A stretch of DNA of 64,000 nt from Candidatus Zixiibacteriota bacterium (GTDB lineage: Bacteria > Zixibacteria > MSB-5A5 > GN15 > JACZUZ01): NCBI GenBank assembly GCA_024280775.1, contig JAJRPM010000007.1, positions 62,001-126,000 of the forward strand. Reading direction: 5' to 3'. Under the pieces are notes generated by a model. That model was not told the DNA's origin and did no database searches. It saw only the letters and a program-made list of their open reading frames with translations. Made by a program: the position numbers and the translations under genes. Of this stretch, positions 1-11,626 are shown piece after piece. Within the stretch, counting starts at the first letter, position 1, and each line of letters starts with the position of its first letter.

Positions 1-881
1 TCTGTGCGCAAAGACTGCTGATCCAGGATACGCATCACGACCTTCTCACCAAAAATAGTCGGCAACACGGAGACACGCAGGTCAATAGGACGACCACCGA
101 TCTTAATCTTGATTCGTCCATCCTGCGGCAATCGGCGCTCAGAGATATCCAGGTCTGCCATAATCTTGATTCGCGAAATCAATGCCGCGCGATACTTGAA
201 TGGTAGCGGATCCATTTCGTGCAGGTCACCGTCAATACGATAGCGCACACGCAAACGACGTTCATAATTCTCTATGTGAATATCCGAGGCGCCCTTACGC
301 ACTGCCTCGGTAATGATGGAGTCTACCAGCTTAACAAGTGGCTTATCCTGAATGGCAGAGAGCAGTTCAGATTCGCTGGGCCCCTGATCATCTTCGACCA
401 ACTCAATGTCAGGGTCGTCCTCCATGCCCTTAATAGCCTCGGCAAACGAGGAAGCGTCGGCATAGAAGGTGTCAATTGCTTTGGTAATTGCTTCTTCGGG
501 AGAGATTACCGGCTGGATATTACAACCGGTGATGAATTTCACCGCATCCAGCACATAGATGTTGTTAGGGTCAGAAATCGCAACGATGAGATTGCGGCCA
601 ATACGAGAAACAGCTATGACATTAAACTTGCGAGCGATATCAAGAGGGATGAGACGCACAATTTCGGGATTCAACTCAACATCCGAAAGACGAAGAGCGC
701 CCATATTGAGCTGTTTGCCTACAAAGCGATATACATCATCAACAGACTCAACGGCCCCGCAATCAACAAGTCCCTGCTCAAACTTCCCTTTGCCGGATTC
801 AGCAAAGGAGCTCGCCCTGTCATACTGCTCTTGTGTAATTCTGCCGGCTTCGACCAGCAATGTCCCGAGATCTGTCTTCAT
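1..881 (-). CDS. pilB: Type IV pilus assembly / type II secretion ATPase PilB/GspE-like, partial (C-terminus beyond window start)
   Basis: Reverse frame open from ATG at 881 to the window edge (missing from ORF track because no stop): MKTDLGTLLVEAGRITQEQYDRA...VKFITGCNIQPVISPEEAI...DKPLVKLVDSIITEAVRKGASDIHIENYERRLRVRYRIDGDLHEM...RLPQDGRIKIKIGGRPIDLRVSVLPTIFGEKVVMRILD; GspE N-domain plus start of ATPase domain. Confidence 0.93.
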   Translation of the reverse strand, partial: MKTDLGTLLVEAGRITQEQYDRASSFAESGKGKFEQGLVDCGAVESVDDVYRFVGKQLNMGALRLSDVELNPEIVRLIPLDIARKFNVIAVSRIGRNLIVAISDPNNIYVLDAVKFITGCNIQPVISPEEAITKAIDTFYADASSFAEAIKGMEDDPDIELVEDDQGPSESELLSAIQDKPLVKLVDSIITEAVRKGASDIHIENYERRLRVRYRIDGDLHEMDPLPFKYRAALISRIKIMADLDISERRLPQDGRIKIKIGGRPIDLRVSVLPTIFGEKVVMRILDQQSLRT

Positions 882-1021
882 TATATTAGCAAATGACCAC
901 TTGCCATATTCTCTTGTTTAACCAATGATGAAATACTTCTTAACAAAATAAGACCGGGCGCTCCAAGCCAATATTTTAGCTTCTTCCCCGGACTACTCAA
1001 CCACACAAATCGAAAACAGAA

Positions 1022-1510
1022 TTATTCACGGAAAATATCATCAAGACGCTCTTCAGCCGAAGCGGCAAACCCTTCTTCGAGCCCGGTCTCGCCAGCCTCT
1101 TCGGAAGTCCCTACATCGTTGATGATTTTCGTCAATTCCTGCGCAACCTCTTTTGAATACAAACGAACCATGCCGATAGTAGTGCGATCATCAAAAATGA
1201 TTGCTAGAATAGCGCGATCACCAATCAACGACATGTGAATGTGGTCTTTCTTCCCCTGATGAAACAACACCGAAAACTCATGTTCACCAACCAAGCGAGC
1301 AATCTCCTTAGTAGATGCGAATGAACCCGCCAGCAATGCAGAGAGAGCGGTCGTATCTAAGGAATGTGTGAACCCTTGCTTGGTTATCAAATGTCCATCC
1401 TTGTCAACCAGCAGTGCGCACTTTGCTTCAGAGCCCTTGAGCGTTTTGCTCAACAGAGCCTCAATCTTAATTACATCTTCTTCATAAATTATCATATCCT
1501 GATCTGACAT
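1022..1510 (-). CDS. Roadblock/LC7 domain protein (MglB-like)
   Basis: IEALLSKTLKGSEAKCALLVDKDGHLITKQG...LLAGSFASTKEIARLVGEHEFSVLFHQGKKDHIHMSLIGDRAILAIIFDDRTTIGMVRLYSKE matches Roadblock/LC7 pattern. Confidence 0.88.
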   Translation of the reverse strand: MSDQDMIIYEEDVIKIEALLSKTLKGSEAKCALLVDKDGHLITKQGFTHSLDTTALSALLAGSFASTKEIARLVGEHEFSVLFHQGKKDHIHMSLIGDRAILAIIFDDRTTIGMVRLYSKEVAQELTKIINDVGTSEEAGETGLEEGFAASAEERLDDIFRE

Positions 1511-1522
1511 ATGTCCTCCGTC

Positions 1523-2746
1523 CTACTTGCGGCCAAATAATCTGCGGAAAAATCCGGGCTTTTTCTGTTTCGGTTTAGGCGGCGCCTGTTCGAGCGGGTC
1601 GTGTCCGACCATACCCGGCTGGTTAGTCGCTTCCTGCTTCTCAGCGGACAACTCCCGGACTGAGTCCATATTTTCGGTGTTGCTAATAACTTCAACCGGG
1701 CCGGTCTGCGCCCCGATGTCTTTGGCCTCACTCTTGACACCGATTTCCCCTGTTGGAGCGGTATCATTGTGCGCCGTCACAGCGTCTTCAGCGTGACCAG
1801 AAACTTGCGCAACCGGAGCTGTCACCGGGCCGGAGCCTATTGACGAATGACGCGCTCTGCCAGAAGATGACCGCGGTGCGCCAAAGAGGCCACCTCCGCC
1901 TGACCCACCGGCGCTCTTTACCAGCGGAGGCGTTACATTTGGTGTCTCCATTGTAGAGACCGCAGTGGCCCCCGCTCCAGTTTTGTTCAGCCCCCCTTGT
2001 GGCGCCCCACTGCCATGTGAGGCGGCAAGCAACGGCTCCGGTGCAGGTGAGATTGTCTGTTGTACACCTTGAGCGCCAACCGGTGAAGCGGCTATTGCGC
2101 TCTCAGGCTTTGCTTCAACACTTGCAGGCTTTGGTGATGCGGGCTTGGCTTTAGCGCTGGTTCCACCTTTTTTCGCCTTCTCAAGCACAAGCTTCATTAT
2201 GGCTTTCAGCGTATCAAAGACACCGACACCGTCAACTGCCGCGGCAGTATGACTCGGCCAATTGTGTACATTTAGCTTGGTGTCCAGTTCTTCCTGAGAA
2301 AGCGCCGTAGGCAGGTCACTCTTGTTGTACTGAATCACTATAGGCAATTCGTTTACATCATACCCATACTCTTCCAAATTCTCCTTCAAATTGGACAACG
2401 ACTCCATGTTGTCATCATGTTTGTCCGCCTGAGCGTCAGCAACGAAAACAACACCGTCAACGCCCCTGAGAACTAGCCTCCTGGTAGCGTTGTAGTAAAC
2501 CTGTCCCGGCACAGTATAGAGCTGGAACTTTGCGGCAAATCCATTGATTGAGCCAATGTTAATTGGCAGGAAGTCGAAGTACAAAGTACGGTCAGCTTCA
2601 GTCGCCAAAGAGATTAGCTTGCCGCGAGTGTTTTGCGGCACTTTCTGATGCACCACCTGCAAGTTAGTGGTCTTTCCTGACAACCCCGGGCCGTAATAGA
2701 CAATCTTGCAGCAGACTTCCCTGGTTGCGTAATTTATAGATACCAT
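1523..2746 (-). CDS. MglA-like small Ras-family GTPase with long Pro/Ala/Gly-rich C-terminal extension
   Basis: KIVYYGPGLSGKTTNL P-loop, TVPGQVYYNATRRLVLRGVDGVVFVADAQ, QYNKSDLP; about 200-residue low-complexity tail ending KPKQKKPGFFRRLFGRK. Confidence 0.93.
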   Translation of the reverse strand: MVSINYATREVCCKIVYYGPGLSGKTTNLQVVHQKVPQNTRGKLISLATEADRTLYFDFLPINIGSINGFAAKFQLYTVPGQVYYNATRRLVLRGVDGVVFVADAQADKHDDNMESLSNLKENLEEYGYDVNELPIVIQYNKSDLPTALSQEELDTKLNVHNWPSHTAAAVDGVGVFDTLKAIMKLVLEKAKKGGTSAKAKPASPKPASVEAKPESAIAASPVGAQGVQQTISPAPEPLLAASHGSGAPQGGLNKTGAGATAVSTMETPNVTPPLVKSAGGSGGGGLFGAPRSSSGRARHSSIGSGPVTAPVAQVSGHAEDAVTAHNDTAPTGEIGVKSEAKDIGAQTGPVEVISNTENMDSVRELSAEKQEATNQPGMVGHDPLEQAPPKPKQKKPGFFRRLFGRK

Positions 2747-2838
2747 TGTGTAGTTGCCTTAGTCAGTTGTTCTTACTCTTGCTCATTAAAGCCTGCTCTT
2801 CAAAGCTTGCTCTCGATAGCTCGCTTCACAAAAAACAG

Positions 2839-3180
2839 CTAGACTGCCACCGCGATTTTTCCAGCCGCATTCTTCATTTCCAGCCGAATCAACCCCATGT
2901 TGACCTCCGGTTCGGTGGTGACAACAAGTATTCCAATGCCAACCTCAGCGAGGAAGAGCTTGCCATACTGCGCCTCAACTGTAACCTCAGTCAAAGGTGT
3001 GGCATTCAAACGGTCAAGAGACTTGCGGATGTTCGCAGAAATAGAAGCCGCCAAAGCTCCAACTGTTTCTTCTTCAACCGACTCATCAAGATCCGAGGCA
3101 ATGACGATTCCGTCTTCACCAACTATCATTGACCCGGTGACTCCACTGGTCTTATTCAATTCACTCAGAGCTGCGTACAT
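2839..3180 (-). CDS. Roadblock/LC7 domain protein (MglB-like)
   Basis: MYAALSELNKTSGVTGSMIVGEDGIVIASDLDESVEEETVGALAASISANIRKSLDRLNATPLTEVTVEAQYGKLFLAEVGIGILVVTTEPEVNMGLIRLEM; start at 3180 preferred over the track start at 3240. Confidence 0.88.
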   Translation of the reverse strand: MYAALSELNKTSGVTGSMIVGEDGIVIASDLDESVEEETVGALAASISANIRKSLDRLNATPLTEVTVEAQYGKLFLAEVGIGILVVTTEPEVNMGLIRLEMKNAAGKIAVAV

Positions 3181-4234
3181 TATTTCCCTCCATGCCCACG
3201 AACAGTGTCTCACTGTATCGAGCGGATATATATTTACCAATTATATCACTTGCCTGCGATACACGCACCCCAAGCAAGTCATCATCATGTATTTCAGAAA
3301 CTACAAAGAGAATCAACCTGCCAACGAGCCGACATTCAACTCTCAAATCGTTGTAATGCAACTCCACCCTATGTGGGCCAGATTGCTGGAAACGCTCCAA
3401 TATCCAGGAATTCTCTTCAACAAGAGACAAGGCAAAAGGCGACCAGTCCTCGCTAACGAATCCGGTGCGAGAAAAAGATGCAACTTCGAGCCCATCCAAA
3501 TCAACAATCGCGGCAACCTTCACCGAAGCGTCCTCGGCCAAGTAATTGACAGCCCTTTCAAATCCATTTCCAGAATAGCTCACAGCCCCCGGAGCGTTTC
3601 TTTCTCTATCAGAGTCAGCGCCAAATGCGAATTCACCTTCTTGAGGAACGCCCTGCCCGAGAGAACTTCGAGCATTGCTACCCATTGCGTCCGTACCTGC
3701 GTCCGTGCCTGCGCTAGTTTGTTCTCCGCTGGTAAACGTGAGATCACTTGCCATCATCGCCGGAGCGCTATCTTGCATCGAAGAATGCATTGACGCCACA
3801 TTTTCATCTTCAGCGGCGTTATCAAGTCTATCAATTAACCACTTCACAAAAGACATCACCACAAACGGACTGCACAAAATAAACGTTAAGTATCCCGGCC
3901 AATAGCCATAGAACCCCTCACGCATTGCATCACCGAGGACAACACCTCCCGGCGCGAATATCATAAAACCGAAAAGCGCCGCCAGGATAAAGCGATACAA
4001 CCCGGCCATAAAGGCCCCAAGCAAAGTGGCCTTCAATCCCACACCGGAATTGAATACTGAGAAGACTATCACATAGTAAAGAGCCTCAAGAATAAGAAGT
4101 GTCGAAAATGAAAACGACAAAGTCATACCAAAAGTGTGCGGGAAAACTATCAATGGCCCAAGAACCGCCACCAACGTGAAAACCACTATCTGCATGACTT
4201 CACTGGAACCGAATGTGCTTTGCTTATATTTCAC
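3161..4234 (-). CDS. Integral membrane protein with C-terminal Roadblock-like domain
   Basis: Four or so hydrophobic segments at N-terminus, then DASVKVAAIVDLDGLEVASFSRTGFVSEDW...LRVECRLVGRLILFVVSEIHDDDLLGVRVSQASDIIGKYI resembling Roadblock. Confidence 0.72.
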   Translation of the reverse strand: MKYKQSTFGSSEVMQIVVFTLVAVLGPLIVFPHTFGMTLSFSFSTLLILEALYYVIVFSVFNSGVGLKATLLGAFMAGLYRFILAALFGFMIFAPGGVVLGDAMREGFYGYWPGYLTFILCSPFVVMSFVKWLIDRLDNAAEDENVASMHSSMQDSAPAMMASDLTFTSGEQTSAGTDAGTDAMGSNARSSLGQGVPQEGEFAFGADSDRERNAPGAVSYSGNGFERAVNYLAEDASVKVAAIVDLDGLEVASFSRTGFVSEDWSPFALSLVEENSWILERFQQSGPHRVELHYNDLRVECRLVGRLILFVVSEIHDDDLLGVRVSQASDIIGKYISARYSETLFVGMEGNNVRSSE

Positions 4235-4237
4235 GCA

Positions 4238-5215
4238 TTAAACTCCTTTTGCCGAGGAATCACGTCGCGGATTGCCTTCGTACGATTTCCAGATTTGATT
4301 GAGATTGGCTCGCAGGCGATTGGTACTTGTGCCTGAATCTGCAAAGAAGACAAAATGTTCATCTTCCCCGACTAAGAAATACATCTTTACGTCTTTGGAT
4401 TCTACTAAAACTGTTTGGCAGGCGCCAAAAGCTACCCTATCAAGGGTGGCGCTGACACAACGGAACGCCTCAAAGGCCGCTGAGCTATACTCATCCTCAA
4501 GCTCCTTGTCCTTCCAGCGTGATTCAAAGACACCGCCCTCGCTGTCCTGACGTAAAGAGCCAAAGACTCCCTCAAGCGCCACTCCCTTATCAAGCACATC
4601 TACCACAGAGAGCATCAATGTCTTTGAGATAGTTTTTGGCGCATCAGACTCCACACCCTCGCCAGAACCTTTGACCGGTTTGGCTCCCATAGGCGGACTC
4701 TTCTTTTTAGTCGGAACGCCAATCGGCTCGACACCACCTGGAAATTTTATGCCTCTGGGATGTCGATCGACTGGTTTTAGCGACTCAAGAAGTTTTTGTA
4801 ATTGCGTGTTATCGGGATTCTTCTTCTGCAGTTTCCGTATCTGCCGCTCGGCTTGTTCAAGCTCACCTTTGGAGATTAGAATCTCACAACGCAGTAATTC
4901 AATCGCGTGAACATTACCACCCTGTTTGGACGCCTTCTCAATCTCAGTTTCCGCCCAATCGTGTAGCCCCTTATCGAGATTTATCTTGGCCATAACCACA
5001 TGAGCAGAGCCGTATGTCGGGTGGCTCTTAAGCCCTTTCTGACATACCTGAAACGCCTTGTCTAAGTCTCCCTTGCGACGATGCGCCTCGGCTAACGCGG
5101 CAAAAATCTGCGAGCCCGGATTGGAGCTGAGGATGCCCTCACACTTGGAGATGCGCTCATCTATTTCTTGATGGTCAATCATTTCTACTTTCGCGAATAC
5201 CCCTGCTTTGAACAA
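4238..5215 (-). CDS. TPR protein with C-terminal Roadblock-like domain
   Basis: TPR-type repeats (FAALAEAHRRKGDLDKAFQVCQKGLKSHP) followed by SKTLMLSVVDVLDKGVALEGVFGSLRQDSEGG...TVLVESKDVKMYFLVGEDEHFVFFADSGTSTNRLRANLNQIWKSYE. Confidence 0.72.
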   Translation of the reverse strand: MFKAGVFAKVEMIDHQEIDERISKCEGILSSNPGSQIFAALAEAHRRKGDLDKAFQVCQKGLKSHPTYGSAHVVMAKINLDKGLHDWAETEIEKASKQGGNVHAIELLRCEILISKGELEQAERQIRKLQKKNPDNTQLQKLLESLKPVDRHPRGIKFPGGVEPIGVPTKKKSPPMGAKPVKGSGEGVESDAPKTISKTLMLSVVDVLDKGVALEGVFGSLRQDSEGGVFESRWKDKELEDEYSSAAFEAFRCVSATLDRVAFGACQTVLVESKDVKMYFLVGEDEHFVFFADSGTSTNRLRANLNQIWKSYEGNPRRDSSAKGV

Positions 5216-5324
5216 TAGGCCTATCGGGGCTAACTAATCACCACCGAATGTCTTAAGTCAACCAAATACTGAGGTCAACACCACTAAAAATCCAAATACC
5301 CAAAAATCTAATCTTAATTCGGTC

Positions 5325-5789
5325 TTAGCTCAATGCTCGCCTTGCTTTAATCACGCCAAGCAAGAGCAGACCTGCCATCGCGGTAAAAATCACAGGTCGG
5401 AGTAATTCCGGAGCCTGAAAGTAGCCTGCGATGTTCGCCAGTTGGAATAATTGGGCGATTACCAGGCATATTAGGGCGATTACGAAGAACTGCCAGCTCT
5501 TTGCCAGCAGACCGCCCTTTACTGTGCTATACACTCGGATAGCCCCTATCAGAGCCGCCACGGAAACTATCAAGATTGCCCCATCGAAGAGCGAAGGAAC
5601 CGCAAGCAATAGAGCGAGCTCTGCGGCATGCGCAGTCGAAGGAAACCCTATCGTCAGAATCAATCCGAGGAAAGCTCCAACTGTTGCGAGTAAGTTGTTG
5701 GAGTTCCAGGTAGTAACTCGTCTCACAGAAACTCTCTTGGAAAACAATTGTGTCAAAAACATCTCTCTATCCAATCGCTGATTTAACAA
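5325..5789 (-). CDS. Small membrane protein (signal peptide plus about 4 hydrophobic segments)
   Basis: STAHAAELALLLAVPSLFDGAILIVSVAALIGAIRVY...FFVIALICLVIAQLFQLANIAGYF; overlaps upstream gene end, same strand. Confidence 0.65.
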   Translation of the reverse strand: MLNQRLDREMFLTQLFSKRVSVRRVTTWNSNNLLATVGAFLGLILTIGFPSTAHAAELALLLAVPSLFDGAILIVSVAALIGAIRVYSTVKGGLLAKSWQFFVIALICLVIAQLFQLANIAGYFQAPELLRPVIFTAMAGLLLLGVIKARRALS

Positions 5790-7068
5790 TTCTTTCGGCC
5801 CTGTGCAATGCCGTGTAAAAATTCTCGTCTATTTGATAGCGCTTGACCAGCTCACGTCTGGCCGCAAGCGGCTCTGAAATCTCTTTTTTCACCCGGCTAA
5901 CCGCATTGCGATATTGCCGCGAACCCACGAAACGAAACACCAACTCCAATTGATCAGTCAACATAGTCTCAAGTGAGCTCATCAAAGAGTGCAACCGAAT
6001 TGGAGCCGGAATCTTCACCACTGCGGCATAGAACCTGTCAAAGGCCGGACTCCCATCTGAGCCGAATTCTATCCCCGGGAAATAGGTGGCAATACTCGCA
6101 TAATCCGGTGAACTGGCATAATTGATGAACTTGGAGCTTGGAATACTGCCCTTGCCGAAAACCTCATCGACAATCTGACGAATCTTCCAGAAACAGTTGT
6201 TGTAGAGTTGGAAAATAATGCTCAACACCACCTCTTCCTCATTCTCCATCCCGGTAACCGAAACATTCGTCGCCAAACCGGCGCCCTCGACATAGCCTCC
6301 AACAATCAGCTTGTAAAGCGCCCGATAGCTTGGAAACTCTCCAATTGGGGATAAATCAATTACCTGTGGAGTTGTGCGTTCACCGTTAATCAATGGCAAC
6401 AACCGAAATTCATCAATCGTAAAAGCCACTTCACCTGATTCACCGCCAGGCAAATTCGCCATGCGCAACAACACATCATCTTTGGGCATAACTTTTTGTA
6501 TCTCTACCCATTCATCAATACGACGAGTCCCTTCCATTATCACCGACATAGTCGGCAATTCCAATAAAAAGGGCGCATTTCTAGGAGCCTCATCCTCTTT
6601 GAAATCGAACTCACCTGCTGGCCAACTGAAGAGGTTGTAGACAATCTCCTCAATTTGCATCTTCAGACACTCAGCGACTTCATCCTGAGTAAAAACTTTC
6701 ATATCCACCAAAGTCTCACCCAACGGACGCCCGGATTGTTTGTGCAAAACAATCGCTCTCTCTAAATCATCCTTCGAGAGTCTCCCGCGCTTCAAAAGAA
6801 GCGCCCCGAGCATATCCTCAGAGTTGTTCAACGAGCTGGCGAAAATTATCACACCATCGCGAAAAGCCACTTCCTTGGAGCGATTCGCGTCAGTTATTTG
6901 CAATACTCCGGTCTTCTTGCCGGCAGAGAGCAATTGCAGAATATCTGCGAATGAAATAGTCTTAAGATTTCCAGCTAAACTCATACTAGTTTCCCGAGCC
7001 TCGTTATGGGCGCTAGCGCCCTTTGCTCTTTCAAATCGTTTCATTGACCAGTCTGTCATCAGCGACAA
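5767..7068 (-). CDS. DUF4388/PATAN domain protein
   Basis: MSLAGNLKTISFADILQLLSAGKKTGVLQITDANRSKEVAFRDGVIIFASSLNNSEDMLGALLLKRGRLSKDDLERAIVLHKQSGRPLGETLVDM; true start may be the internal MSLAGN. Confidence 0.85.
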   Translation of the reverse strand: MSLMTDWSMKRFERAKGASAHNEARETSMSLAGNLKTISFADILQLLSAGKKTGVLQITDANRSKEVAFRDGVIIFASSLNNSEDMLGALLLKRGRLSKDDLERAIVLHKQSGRPLGETLVDMKVFTQDEVAECLKMQIEEIVYNLFSWPAGEFDFKEDEAPRNAPFLLELPTMSVIMEGTRRIDEWVEIQKVMPKDDVLLRMANLPGGESGEVAFTIDEFRLLPLINGERTTPQVIDLSPIGEFPSYRALYKLIVGGYVEGAGLATNVSVTGMENEEEVVLSIIFQLYNNCFWKIRQIVDEVFGKGSIPSSKFINYASSPDYASIATYFPGIEFGSDGSPAFDRFYAAVVKIPAPIRLHSLMSSLETMLTDQLELVFRFVGSRQYRNAVSRVKKEISEPLAARRELVKRYQIDENFYTALHRAERIVKSAIG

Positions 7069-7394: not shown

Positions 7395-9830
7395 TTAGCG
7401 TCCAACAATCGTCACAGCGCCTGTAACAGATACATAGGAAACTAACTGCGCAAAGTCTGCGGAAAGTTGCAAGCTTCGATTTCTGCGACTAGTGATGATT
7501 CTTAGTTTCATAGTCTTGGAGAGTTTCTGAAGCATAGCGCTGGTGCGAGCGTCCAACTTGTCCACTACAACCACCAATGTAGTTTCAGATTGAGACAGAC
7601 CATCAGTAGCCGGATGCAAGCGCAATAACTTCGTCACTAAATGGAACTCCAACTCATCAACCGCCAAAGACAAATACAATATCCGAACTTTCTCAAAAAC
7701 TTGCAAAGCCAATGAGGACCCGGCAATCAATGACGTCTCTCTCTTTTCTCCAGCGGTTTCATGCTCTAGAACGGCAACTAGCAATGCAGAATCAATCCCG
7801 GAGCTAAATCGTAAATGATACTTCTCATTCGGAATCCCATATTGCGCTTGATGATCCCTCCAAAGAAATTCCGCGTCTTTTGTCAGTGTAAGCGCCGCGC
7901 CGGGAAAGGAGTCACATACAGTAAGAGCATTGACCAAGGTCTGATGGTCAGCAGATAGTTGCGCCAAATGCAACTCCTGCCCTGAGCCAGTATTCGCCCC
8001 CGCTAGATGCAACGCCGGAGCGAGCACATAGCGAAACTGTTGCCCGGGAGCAGACACCAAATCCGAGATTATAAGCGTAGGAGTCGAACCACCCACAACT
8101 GCACAAATCCCGCCGCGTGACGCAAGAATTGTGGTCTTTGAGCTACTTTGACTGTGACCAAGTATGGACGGAGCTATCAAAATCACTGGCGCTAGAACCA
8201 ACGCAAAGACTGTAACCCTACGCAAGCGTCGTGAAGTCAATGACATTCCCAATAGAGCCACCAGAGTGAGCGCAACAATAACCGATAGCACAGAAAAATC
8301 TCCCGCGCGCAATTGCCATGAGTCCGCCCCTCCGAAATATTGTAGAAGAACTAGAATTCCTTTCAACCATAAATTCAAAACCGCGCCAACCAGCGACCCT
8401 AACAGCGGCAAGACCGAAGCCGCGCCTAATGTTACAAGCGATAAAGCTACCGCCCCTCCAACAGCAGGAGCCACTATCAAATTCGAAAGGGTTGCATTTA
8501 GAGGAGTGGTTCCAAAATAGTAGAGCGCGATAGGCGAGGAACTCAATTGTGCGACAAATGCAAATACCATAGGCAGCAGAAAGAACTTGTAGGCTCGTGA
8601 GACTTGTCGTCGATCAAGAAACCGATTCACCGGGGGAACGAACAAGATCAACGCCCAGGATACCGCAAAAGACAGCTGGAACCCTACATCAAATAGTTGA
8701 TTCGGACTCCAAAACAAAATAATCGCCCCAGCCGATGCGATAAGGTTGTGGTAGTCAATCCTCCGCTCAAAACTCCGACCCATCAAAAACAAGGTCACCA
8801 TCACACTAGCGCGCACCACCGAGGGATCATTATGCGACAGAAACGAAAAGAATACCGCTCCGAGAATAAGTAACAAGTAGCGCATCCGGCGCCCCAAAGG
8901 AAACGGCCAAAGAAACAACCGAAGAACCAATAGCGCCACCGCCACATTCGAACCTGAAACCGCCAACAAATGCAGTGTGCCACTGCGACGAAACTGCTGG
9001 TAGATTTCATCATCGATACCTGCGGTCTCACCTATCAAAAACCCCGAAGCCAAAGCCGCAGGTTGTTCCTGCAATGTCTCATCAAAGATTGTCAGAATAT
9101 ACTCACGTACCAAGCGAGTTACCCCGCCAACACTATATCCAATTTCAGGGTTTCTGGTTATTCCGAATTGATGTGGCAAATACACAATTCCGAAAATATC
9201 TTTCCAACGTAAATAACGCGCATAGTCAAAACCACCCGGGTTCTTCTTCTCAGGAGCCTCGGCAATCACACCATCGAGCGCTATCCTGTCGCCATACTGA
9301 AAATCAGTTGACTGCGTGTTAATGAAGACCATTATAGAGCCACTACGGCGCACACTCTTTGCATAACGCTCCGGAGCTACCATTTGCGCAGTTGAATCCA
9401 CTCGCAGAGTCAAACGTGTAGAGCGCTCACGGACATCCGGCCAGTCGCTAATGAGCCCATAAATCCGATACTGCGCCCCATCACCAACACTACTTAGGAT
9501 GTGATTCTTAGAGAGACCACTACCAGCGGCGCTAACCCGGAAGGCCATCAAACTCAGCAATCCCAGCAATGTCAGAGTGACAACCGCTATGACCTTTGCT
9601 CTTGAAGAGGTTGCGCCAAAAAGCAATACCCCGGCAACTAACAATGCCAGTATAGCAGTAACCAGCCACAGCCAGGGGGATAGCAAATCATATTGCCCAA
9701 GAATTACACCAGCGCAAATCGCCGCCAATGCAAATAGCGCCGGTCTGCGATAGGCAAGTGGCGCTATACCCGAGAGCTTACTCCATGACATTGCAGGCAG
9801 ACGACTCTCTGTAAATGAAGTTTCTTTCAC
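7395..9830 (-). CDS. comEC: ComEC/Rec2-family competence membrane protein with divergent C-terminus
   Basis: DUF4131-like N-domain (YGDRIALDGVIAEAPEKKNPGGFDYARYLRWKDIFGIVYL) and competence domain (HLLAVSGSNVAVALLVLRLFLWPF...LSHNDPSVVRASVMVTLFLMGRSFERRIDYHNLIASAGAIILFWSPNQLFDVGFQLSFAVSWALIL). Confidence 0.92.
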   Translation of the reverse strand: MKETSFTESRLPAMSWSKLSGIAPLAYRRPALFALAAICAGVILGQYDLLSPWLWLVTAILALLVAGVLLFGATSSRAKVIAVVTLTLLGLLSLMAFRVSAAGSGLSKNHILSSVGDGAQYRIYGLISDWPDVRERSTRLTLRVDSTAQMVAPERYAKSVRRSGSIMVFINTQSTDFQYGDRIALDGVIAEAPEKKNPGGFDYARYLRWKDIFGIVYLPHQFGITRNPEIGYSVGGVTRLVREYILTIFDETLQEQPAALASGFLIGETAGIDDEIYQQFRRSGTLHLLAVSGSNVAVALLVLRLFLWPFPLGRRMRYLLLILGAVFFSFLSHNDPSVVRASVMVTLFLMGRSFERRIDYHNLIASAGAIILFWSPNQLFDVGFQLSFAVSWALILFVPPVNRFLDRRQVSRAYKFFLLPMVFAFVAQLSSSPIALYYFGTTPLNATLSNLIVAPAVGGAVALSLVTLGAASVLPLLGSLVGAVLNLWLKGILVLLQYFGGADSWQLRAGDFSVLSVIVALTLVALLGMSLTSRRLRRVTVFALVLAPVILIAPSILGHSQSSSKTTILASRGGICAVVGGSTPTLIISDLVSAPGQQFRYVLAPALHLAGANTGSGQELHLAQLSADHQTLVNALTVCDSFPGAALTLTKDAEFLWRDHQAQYGIPNEKYHLRFSSGIDSALLVAVLEHETAGEKRETSLIAGSSLALQVFEKVRILYLSLAVDELEFHLVTKLLRLHPATDGLSQSETTLVVVVDKLDARTSAMLQKLSKTMKLRIITSRRNRSLQLSADFAQLVSYVSVTGAVTIVGR

Positions 9831-9877: not shown

Positions 9878-11539
9878 TCAACGACGACGAAGCCTACCCA
9901 AAAACCTTCGGGCTTCAGCAAGCCCCAAAACTAACGTAGCTATCCAGTATATAACAGCTCCGGCGCCAACTGTCAGACTCAACTCCAACGCCTTACCGAT
10001 GATGCCCGAAAGTCCCCAGGATAAGTCAAACGACTGGTAATAGAGCGCCAAAGCCATAACCGCCGCTCCGAGTATAGTCTTAATTATTGACTCAAAATAC
10101 GAGCCAACTCCGGACATCACATTTCGTTTCTGTAGTCCAACTATCAACAAAACCAAATTGAGCCAACCTGCCGCGGAAGTCGCCGCGGCCAATCCCGCGA
10201 AACCCATATGAATCCAGGGCGACTCCACCAGCGCCAAGGCCAAGACAATATTCGCCACTACCGCATAAACCGAATAGCGCATCGGTGTCTTTGAATCAGA
10301 AAAAGCATAGAAAATCGGCGTTAAAACTCTCACTCCCGACAAAGCCGGCAACCCCAGAGAATACCAAAACAATCCCCAACTAACTTCGCTAGCGTCAATA
10401 GAGGTAAAAGCCCCACGCAGGTAGATTGCATTTATCAAGTCTTCATTAAAAAACGCCAAATAAACAGCAGATGGAATAATCAGAAACAGAGCCATTCGCG
10501 CCGCCGATCGTATCGTATTTGCCAGGCTCTCGATGTCCCCGCGAGCCACTAGCTCCGAGGCCCTCGGTAGAGTCACTGTGCCGATTGCCACTGCAAAAAC
10601 TCCCTGCGGGAAATGCATCAACTGATATGAATACACCAAATACGAAACAGCGCCTGCGCCTTGCATCGACGCCAGCAATGTCCCGACAAAGATATTTATC
10701 CGACTGGCGCTAAGACCAATTATCATCGGGGCCATTAACTTGCCGACTGCCTTAATGCCCGGGTCTTTGAATTTGAAATCAAACCGCAATCGGCTACCGA
10801 CTTTATAAAGCGCTGGAAGTTGAATCGCGAACTGACCTATCCCACCAAGAAGCACACCGACAATCAAACTATAAACCGGAACCTCAAAAAAATTATAAAG
10901 CAAGAGCATAGATAGAATCATCGCCACATTGAACATCGACGATGCCAAAGCCGGAATTCCAAACTTCCCATAGGAATTCAAAATCCCCATCAGCAAAGCC
11001 GAAAGGGAGACGAACATCAAATACGGAAACATCCAGCGAGTAAGCAGAACCGTCAATTCGAACTTCTCAGGCTCAGCGGCGAAACCTCCCGCTATCAAAT
11101 AGACGAATCCCGTCGCAGTCGCGATTCCCACCAGCACAGTTGCGGCCAGCGTGAAAAACAACAGCGTAAACATCCTATCCGAGAGCTGACGTGCGCGCTC
11201 GGCGCCTTCGGAGACCAACGTCTTCTTAAAAACCGGAATAAACGCCGTCGATAGCGAGCCCTCGGCAAACAAATCGCGAAACAGATTGGGAATACGATAG
11301 GCGACAAAAAATGCATCGGCGGCCATAGAAGCCCCGAAATAGCTCGCCATCAATTGAACCCGAACCAGCCCCAATATCCTCGAAATCGCCGTAGCCCCGC
11401 TAACCACCGACACCGAACCCGACATTTTGGAGGGTTTTGGCTCACCGGACTCCCCAACAGCTAGAGGATTGCCCTGCTCATCAAATCTCGTTTTATTCTC
11501 TTTGGTCACAAACTCTCGCGTATTCTCTCTAATTCGCAA
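9878..11539 (-). CDS. murJ: Lipid II flippase MurJ (MviN family)
   Basis: SVVSGATAISRILGLVRVQLMASYFGASMAADAFFVAYRIPNLFRDLFAEGSLSTAFIPVF and polytopic MviN fold. Confidence 0.95.
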   Translation of the reverse strand: MRIRENTREFVTKENKTRFDEQGNPLAVGESGEPKPSKMSGSVSVVSGATAISRILGLVRVQLMASYFGASMAADAFFVAYRIPNLFRDLFAEGSLSTAFIPVFKKTLVSEGAERARQLSDRMFTLLFFTLAATVLVGIATATGFVYLIAGGFAAEPEKFELTVLLTRWMFPYLMFVSLSALLMGILNSYGKFGIPALASSMFNVAMILSMLLLYNFFEVPVYSLIVGVLLGGIGQFAIQLPALYKVGSRLRFDFKFKDPGIKAVGKLMAPMIIGLSASRINIFVGTLLASMQGAGAVSYLVYSYQLMHFPQGVFAVAIGTVTLPRASELVARGDIESLANTIRSAARMALFLIIPSAVYLAFFNEDLINAIYLRGAFTSIDASEVSWGLFWYSLGLPALSGVRVLTPIFYAFSDSKTPMRYSVYAVVANIVLALALVESPWIHMGFAGLAAATSAAGWLNLVLLIVGLQKRNVMSGVGSYFESIIKTILGAAVMALALYYQSFDLSWGLSGIIGKALELSLTVGAGAVIYWIATLVLGLAEARRFLGRLRRR

Positions 11540-11626
11540 CTCTGCTTAAGCCTAACTAGCTGACAATCATTACATTAGCCTGCTAAGCCCTTCTGTGGCG
11601 CCATCTGCATCCAGCGAAAATAGCCC

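Follow-up and report, generated by a model that had tools for sequence, protein, structure and literature searches.

Gene Content of the Locus

The window, that is, the whole stretch of 64,000 nucleotides, in which reading frames were listed up to 16 kb, opens with eight consecutive minus-strand genes, and all eight reading frames listed in the earlier note are present. First in the direction of transcription is the gene for a PATAN/DUF4388 protein with an MshE-like c-di-GMP-motif insertion (5767..6984), which was assigned by Pfam DUF4388 (2e-33), by the NCBIfam c-di-GMP_motif model, and by its orthologues; the latter favour an ATG at about 6984 within a reading frame that opens at 7068. It is followed by a small membrane protein, smTM (5325..5789), which gave no family match above cut-off and is recognized by an orthologue at the same place in 41 of 41 loci. 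The next gene encodes a TPR protein with a C-terminal Roadblock domain (4238..5182; TPR match 8.5e-10), with a probable start at 5182 in a reading frame opening at 5215, and the one after it a membrane protein of four to five helices, likewise ending in a Roadblock domain (3161..4234). These two are referred to as TPR/Roadblock and TM/Roadblock. RobA (2839..3180) is a free-standing Roadblock protein, whose reading frame opens at 3240 while its likeliest start is at 3180 (Pfam Robl_LC7, 1.1e-12 for 2839-3240). Then follow MglA (1523..2746), with a Pfam small GTPase match, a second free-standing Roadblock protein, RobB (1022..1510; Robl_LC7, 1.4e-12), and the 5′ part of pilB (1..881), which scores 674.9 bits against a cut-off of 675.65 in TIGR02538, the rest of the gene lying beyond the window. 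MglA is a single match in the genome, and RobA and RobB are the only Pfam Roadblock matches across it.

Past the window edge the operon goes on, with the remainder of pilB and with genes for PilT, PilC, and a sensor histidine kinase, as read from locus L003 (window positions are L003 positions minus 12000). The genome holds a type IVa pilus set, with PilB, PilT, and PilC encoded in the operon. Outside it lie PilM, pilin-like genes, and, named by eye from sequence, PilN, PilO, and a secretin. Directly upstream of the operon, on the same strand, lies comEC (7395..9830, minus strand), also named from its sequence.

The MglA GTPase and the MglB Orthologue

Alignment of the window MglA with its M. 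xanthus counterpart covers residues 3-197 (E 4.5e-79). Arg53, Thr78, and Gln82 of the M. xanthus protein are found at the same numbers, and the corresponding columns are conserved in the 41-row alignment. To judge from this alignment, the operon GTPase is a canonical MglA, with putative GTP binding and putative MglB-stimulated GTPase activity. Past the G domain, which spans about residues 1-195, the MglA of all 41 loci has a hypervariable linker, 77-427 residues long and with many disorder-type residues, that leads to a basic-aromatic C-terminal motif, for example, GFFRRLFGRK. A hydrophobic pair occurs within the last 18 residues in 41/41 loci and a basic pair within the last 25 residues in 39/41, the mean net charge over the last 22 residues being +7.4. 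The solved MglA chains that were matched are 195-203 residues long and, therefore, lack such a tail. The tail motif resembles the Ras hypervariable region, which is a comparison only; membrane binding would be putative. A membrane-amphipathic helix was considered for the tail and rejected, since the last 22 residues have a hydrophobic moment no higher than that of shuffled sequences (mean z 0.36).

RobB aligns with M. xanthus MglB over its residues 5-162 (E 1.6e-35), which is a full-length match including the region of the C-terminal helix. In M. xanthus MglB this helix drives nucleotide exchange, while Asn37 and Arg98 are the GAP residues (PMC11016934); in the alignment with RobB, Arg98 is kept and Asn37 is replaced by Asp. 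RobB reached 89.5 bits in the NCBIfam equivalog NF052242 (GTPaseActivMglBThm), below the cut-off of 200, a miss that weighs little because the model, by its name, looks made for Thermus-type MglB. On the strength of the full-length match, RobB is taken to be an MglB orthologue.

Additional Roadblock Proteins

For the window copies of TM/Roadblock and TPR/Roadblock no Pfam Roadblock match was obtained. Among their orthologues, Pfam Robl_LC7 matches 14 of 27 of the TM type and 18 of 28 of the TPR type, and hhalign relates the C-terminal parts of the two fusions to RobA with probabilities of 96.9% (TM/Roadblock) and 99.2% (TPR/Roadblock), controls with other domains of the same operon remaining below 10%. 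AlphaFold2 models of both C-termini consist of a helix, two strands, a helix, three strands, and a helix, with pLDDT mostly above 90. The best Foldseek match in the PDB is MglB (6hjm, E 1.4e-7) for TM/Roadblock and an archaeal Roadblock protein (7yh1, E 7.5e-6) for TPR/Roadblock; Foldseek groups both domains with MglB, archaeal Roadblocks, and the Ragulator LAMTOR proteins. The Roadblock folds that the earlier note had suspected in the C-termini of 3161-4234 and 4238-5215 are, thus, supported by orthologue profiles, profile alignment, and structure prediction alike. Since both fusions carry a Roadblock domain, four such domains accompany one GTPase.

In 36 of 41 loci the stop codon of TM/Roadblock overlaps the likely RobA start by 8-41 nt, the RobA starts for this count having been picked by expected protein length. 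The overlap suggests translational coupling of the two genes, and we infer from it that their products may act in a joint complex. For RobA itself, a role as an MglC-like protein was also considered and rejected; a PDB profile search returned archaeal Roadblocks first, then CvnB5, MglB, and LAMTOR2, with no MglC among the matches.

One branch has dispensed with the membrane part of TM/Roadblock. In L088 (10995-11396), L089 (9056-9502), and L090 (8951-9397) a protein of 133-148 amino acids is all that is left of it, while the remaining operon is kept; the anchor is, therefore, not always needed. Within the predicted helices of the membrane part, two charged residues, Glu50 and Arg81, are invariant in 58 of 58 aligned sequences.

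The PATAN Protein

In the window PATAN protein, Pfam DUF4388 scores 115.5 bits (cut-off 25) and the NCBIfam MshE-like c-di-GMP motif 47.2 bits (cut-off 38), the latter being at or over cut-off in 9 of 10 orthologues scanned. The insertion is related to the PilB N-terminus by profile comparison (97.5%). Some residues of its first RLG..L...G pattern differ in the window protein; the families of L093 and L103, for example, have the pattern in full. With scores over cut-off, the insertion is predicted to be a c-di-GMP receptor motif of the MshEN type.

Conservation of the Gene Order

Gene order was compared in 41 loci, namely, the window's own and 40 from relatives, from 17 families of Candidatus Zixiibacteriota. 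As far as the genes were found in each stretch fetched, the succession PATAN, smTM, TPR/Roadblock, TM/Roadblock, RobA, MglA, MglB, PilB, PilT, PilC, and kinase is fixed in 41/41 loci; PilT and PilC are missing from the fetched stretch in four loci and the kinase in six. In a separate scan of named genomes with one peptide pattern, which found 83 relatives, 79 of the 80 loci listed are a contiguous part of the same gene order; both sets come from the same phylum and overlap in species. The gene order is conserved far beyond chance, and the neighbourhood of the earlier note's operon is kept phylum-wide. In L077 the operon ends after an enlarged PilB reading frame; no PilT, PilC, or kinase gene was found in the part fetched.

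Proposed Function

Most of what is known in detail about polarity control by MglA comes from Myxococcus. In M. xanthus, MglA recruits the TPR protein SgmX, which in turn brings PilB to the pole (PMC11580455), and in Synechocystis the PATAN protein PixE was reported to interact with PilB1 (reviewed in PMC7690835). From the family assignments, the folds, and the synteny described above, we infer both the interactions and the function of the Zixiibacteriota proteins. The locus is probably, though by no means certainly, a phylum-wide operon for the spatial control of type IVa pili, in which the MglA/MglB switch and the extra Roadblock modules would act on PilB. A switch for pilus placement is the most economical reading, by analogy, of an operon that combines parts of these kinds with PilB. 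Family membership and synteny lend good support to the expanded polarity controller of the pilus motor that the earlier note had proposed and that none of the note's own tests refuted. Zixiibacteriota would, then, probably site pili on the cell with an expanded version of the Myxococcus switch.

In the proposed pathway, MglA would cycle between GTP and GDP under the control of MglB. TM/Roadblock and RobA would dimerize with each other, and MglA would dock on this mixed, membrane-anchored pair, aided at the membrane by the basic-aromatic tail of the GTPase. The TPR/Roadblock protein would serve as the adaptor from MglA to the pilus, the role that is played by SgmX in Myxococcus, and the PATAN protein would meet PilB, as PixE does in Synechocystis. 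Eventually, PilB would be recruited or licensed at the chosen site, and pili would be extended there. A more specific version is put forward only tentatively and appears rather less likely than not to hold in full: TM/Roadblock and the coupled RobA may constitute a membrane-anchored heterodimer, as a bacterial counterpart of Ragulator, that captures the tailed, Ras-like MglA at the membrane and acts as scaffold or exchange factor for pilus placement.

The neighbourhood of comEC raises the question of which kind of pilus is controlled. In 39 of 41 loci the gene is the immediate upstream neighbour on the operon's strand, at a distance of -4 to 5 nt in several families, and is therefore regarded as linked to the module; such a link would suit DNA uptake no less than motility. 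The module could control a competence pilus instead of a motility pilus, setting when or where it is extended for transformation, with ComEC as the inner-membrane channel. This we consider unlikely; adjacency alone is no proof of co-function, murJ, which is unrelated to pili, being also nearby in 31 loci, and motility polarity is the setting from which MglA and MglB are known.

The extra Roadblock proteins could, instead of regulating MglA, belong to the structure or scaffold of the pilus base, with MglB alone acting on MglA. Roadblock domains act as scaffolds in other complexes, and the TM and TPR fusions are divergent from MglB, to which hhalign relates them with probabilities of 61-80%, lower than the 97-99% obtained against RobA. 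However, the extra Roadblocks are kept beside mglA and mglB in conserved order, and small GTPases are commonly regulated by heteromeric Roadblock complexes (PMC9481161), so that a purely structural role has a distinctly low probability.

For the organization as one operon the intergenic regions were inspected. In this genome gaps of 109, 140, and 296 nt occur, and promoter-like matches lie in the gap just before PilB, in a scan that overall gave no more matches than shuffled sequences. The gaps between smTM and TPR/Roadblock, RobB and PilB, and PilB and PilT contain no terminator-like site on the coding strand. In other families the first two shrink to single digits or overlaps, that between RobB and PilB measuring down to -4 to 20 nt in several of them, and PilB and PilT are -29 to 60 nt apart. 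With promoter-like sites ahead of it, PilB could be expressed separately. That the cluster is nothing but several transcription units of different function kept side by side is highly improbable in view of the gap shrinkage, the lack of terminator-like sites in these gaps, and an order that is fixed across 17 families.

Comparison with Known Systems

The polarity module of Myxococcus xanthus comprises MglA, MglB, MglC, RomR/RomX, and RomY, together with SgmX, FrzS, and SopA. Both systems have MglA and MglB orthologues; they also resemble each other in having further proteins of Roadblock type, a TPR protein that is linked with MglA and PilB, and a role, putative in Zixiibacteriota, in controlling the extension of type IVa pili (PMC11580455, PMC9481161). 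In Zixiibacteriota, by contrast, a single operon, which includes pilBTC, encodes all the parts; the TPR protein has a Roadblock domain of its own, one Roadblock protein is membrane-anchored, and MglA is long-tailed. SgmX is built of 14 TPRs and an MglA-binding C-terminal part, whereas TPR/Roadblock combines a short TPR stretch (about residues 15-145) with a Roadblock domain; it is not an SgmX but may, by analogy, work like one.

The actinobacterial conservons (CvnA-D) are likewise operons of an MglB-type Roadblock protein, a small GTPase, and a kinase. As described in PMC4316618 they comprise four proteins and no pilus genes, while the Zixiibacteriota kinase sits after pilC. In the cyanobacterial PATAN response regulators PixE, PixG, and LsiR, the PATAN domain acts on PilB (PMC7690835); the Zixiibacteriota PATAN protein differs from them by its MshE-like c-di-GMP motif, and no receiver domain was found in the window protein. 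In eukaryotes, the membrane-anchored Roadblock set of Ragulator (LAMTOR) docks the Rag GTPases, and LAMTOR proteins are among the fold matches obtained here. The comparison is one of architecture, by analogy only. Finally, a canonical mglB-mglA pair, that of the deltaproteobacterial MAG RBG_13_61_14 (G132), the closest MglA of which is a protein of 195 amino acids without a tail, resembles the present locus in the adjacency of the two genes. In Zixiibacteriota mglA precedes mglB, the reverse of the order in G132, and PilB, PATAN, or TM/Roadblock genes do not adjoin the G132 pair.

In the open-licence literature no description of this gene combination or of MglA in this phylum was found, nor any report on DUF4388 with type IV pili. 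The suggestion that the combination may be undescribed, thus, stands for the set as a whole; for one part it does not, MglA or MglB near PATAN genes having been noted earlier for some MglA groups (PMC4316618).

The significance of the locus lies in the fact that a whole uncultured phylum keeps a GTPase and its GAP together in one block with extra Roadblocks, TPR and PATAN proteins, and the pilus motors. For the question of how MglA acts on PilB, the operon supplies a set of candidate partners; it may also include, in bacteria, a membrane-anchored Roadblock platform comparable to those on which the Rag GTPases are held in eukaryotes.

Distribution within and beyond the Phylum

Of 132 genomes from the phylum, 122 were found to have MglA and 120 TM/Roadblock. 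The records matching a TPR/Roadblock profile are almost all from Candidatus Zixiibacteriota, candidate division Zixibacteria RBG-1 included. Four MAGs (L113, L120, L123, and L130) are labelled Calditrichaeota, Calditrichota, Ignavibacterium, or FCB group, yet carry the Zixiibacteriota operon; since the same operon is present, these labels are probably wrong or broad.

A plasmid search with MglA gave as its sole result a Deinococcus Roadblock-GTPase pair, with no annotated pilus genes adjoining. Among the 80 relatives listed, one lies beyond the phylum, namely, the deltaproteobacterial MAG L183; in three genomes searched from the phylum of L183, the TM/Roadblock family was not found. L183 holds at 9953-11595 a gene for a TPR protein related to the TPR part of the fusion, followed by a separate Roadblock-like gene, and the TPR/Roadblock fusion may have originated from a separate gene pair of this kind. 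The L183 pair is located downstream of genes resembling pilN, pilO, pilP, and pilQ.
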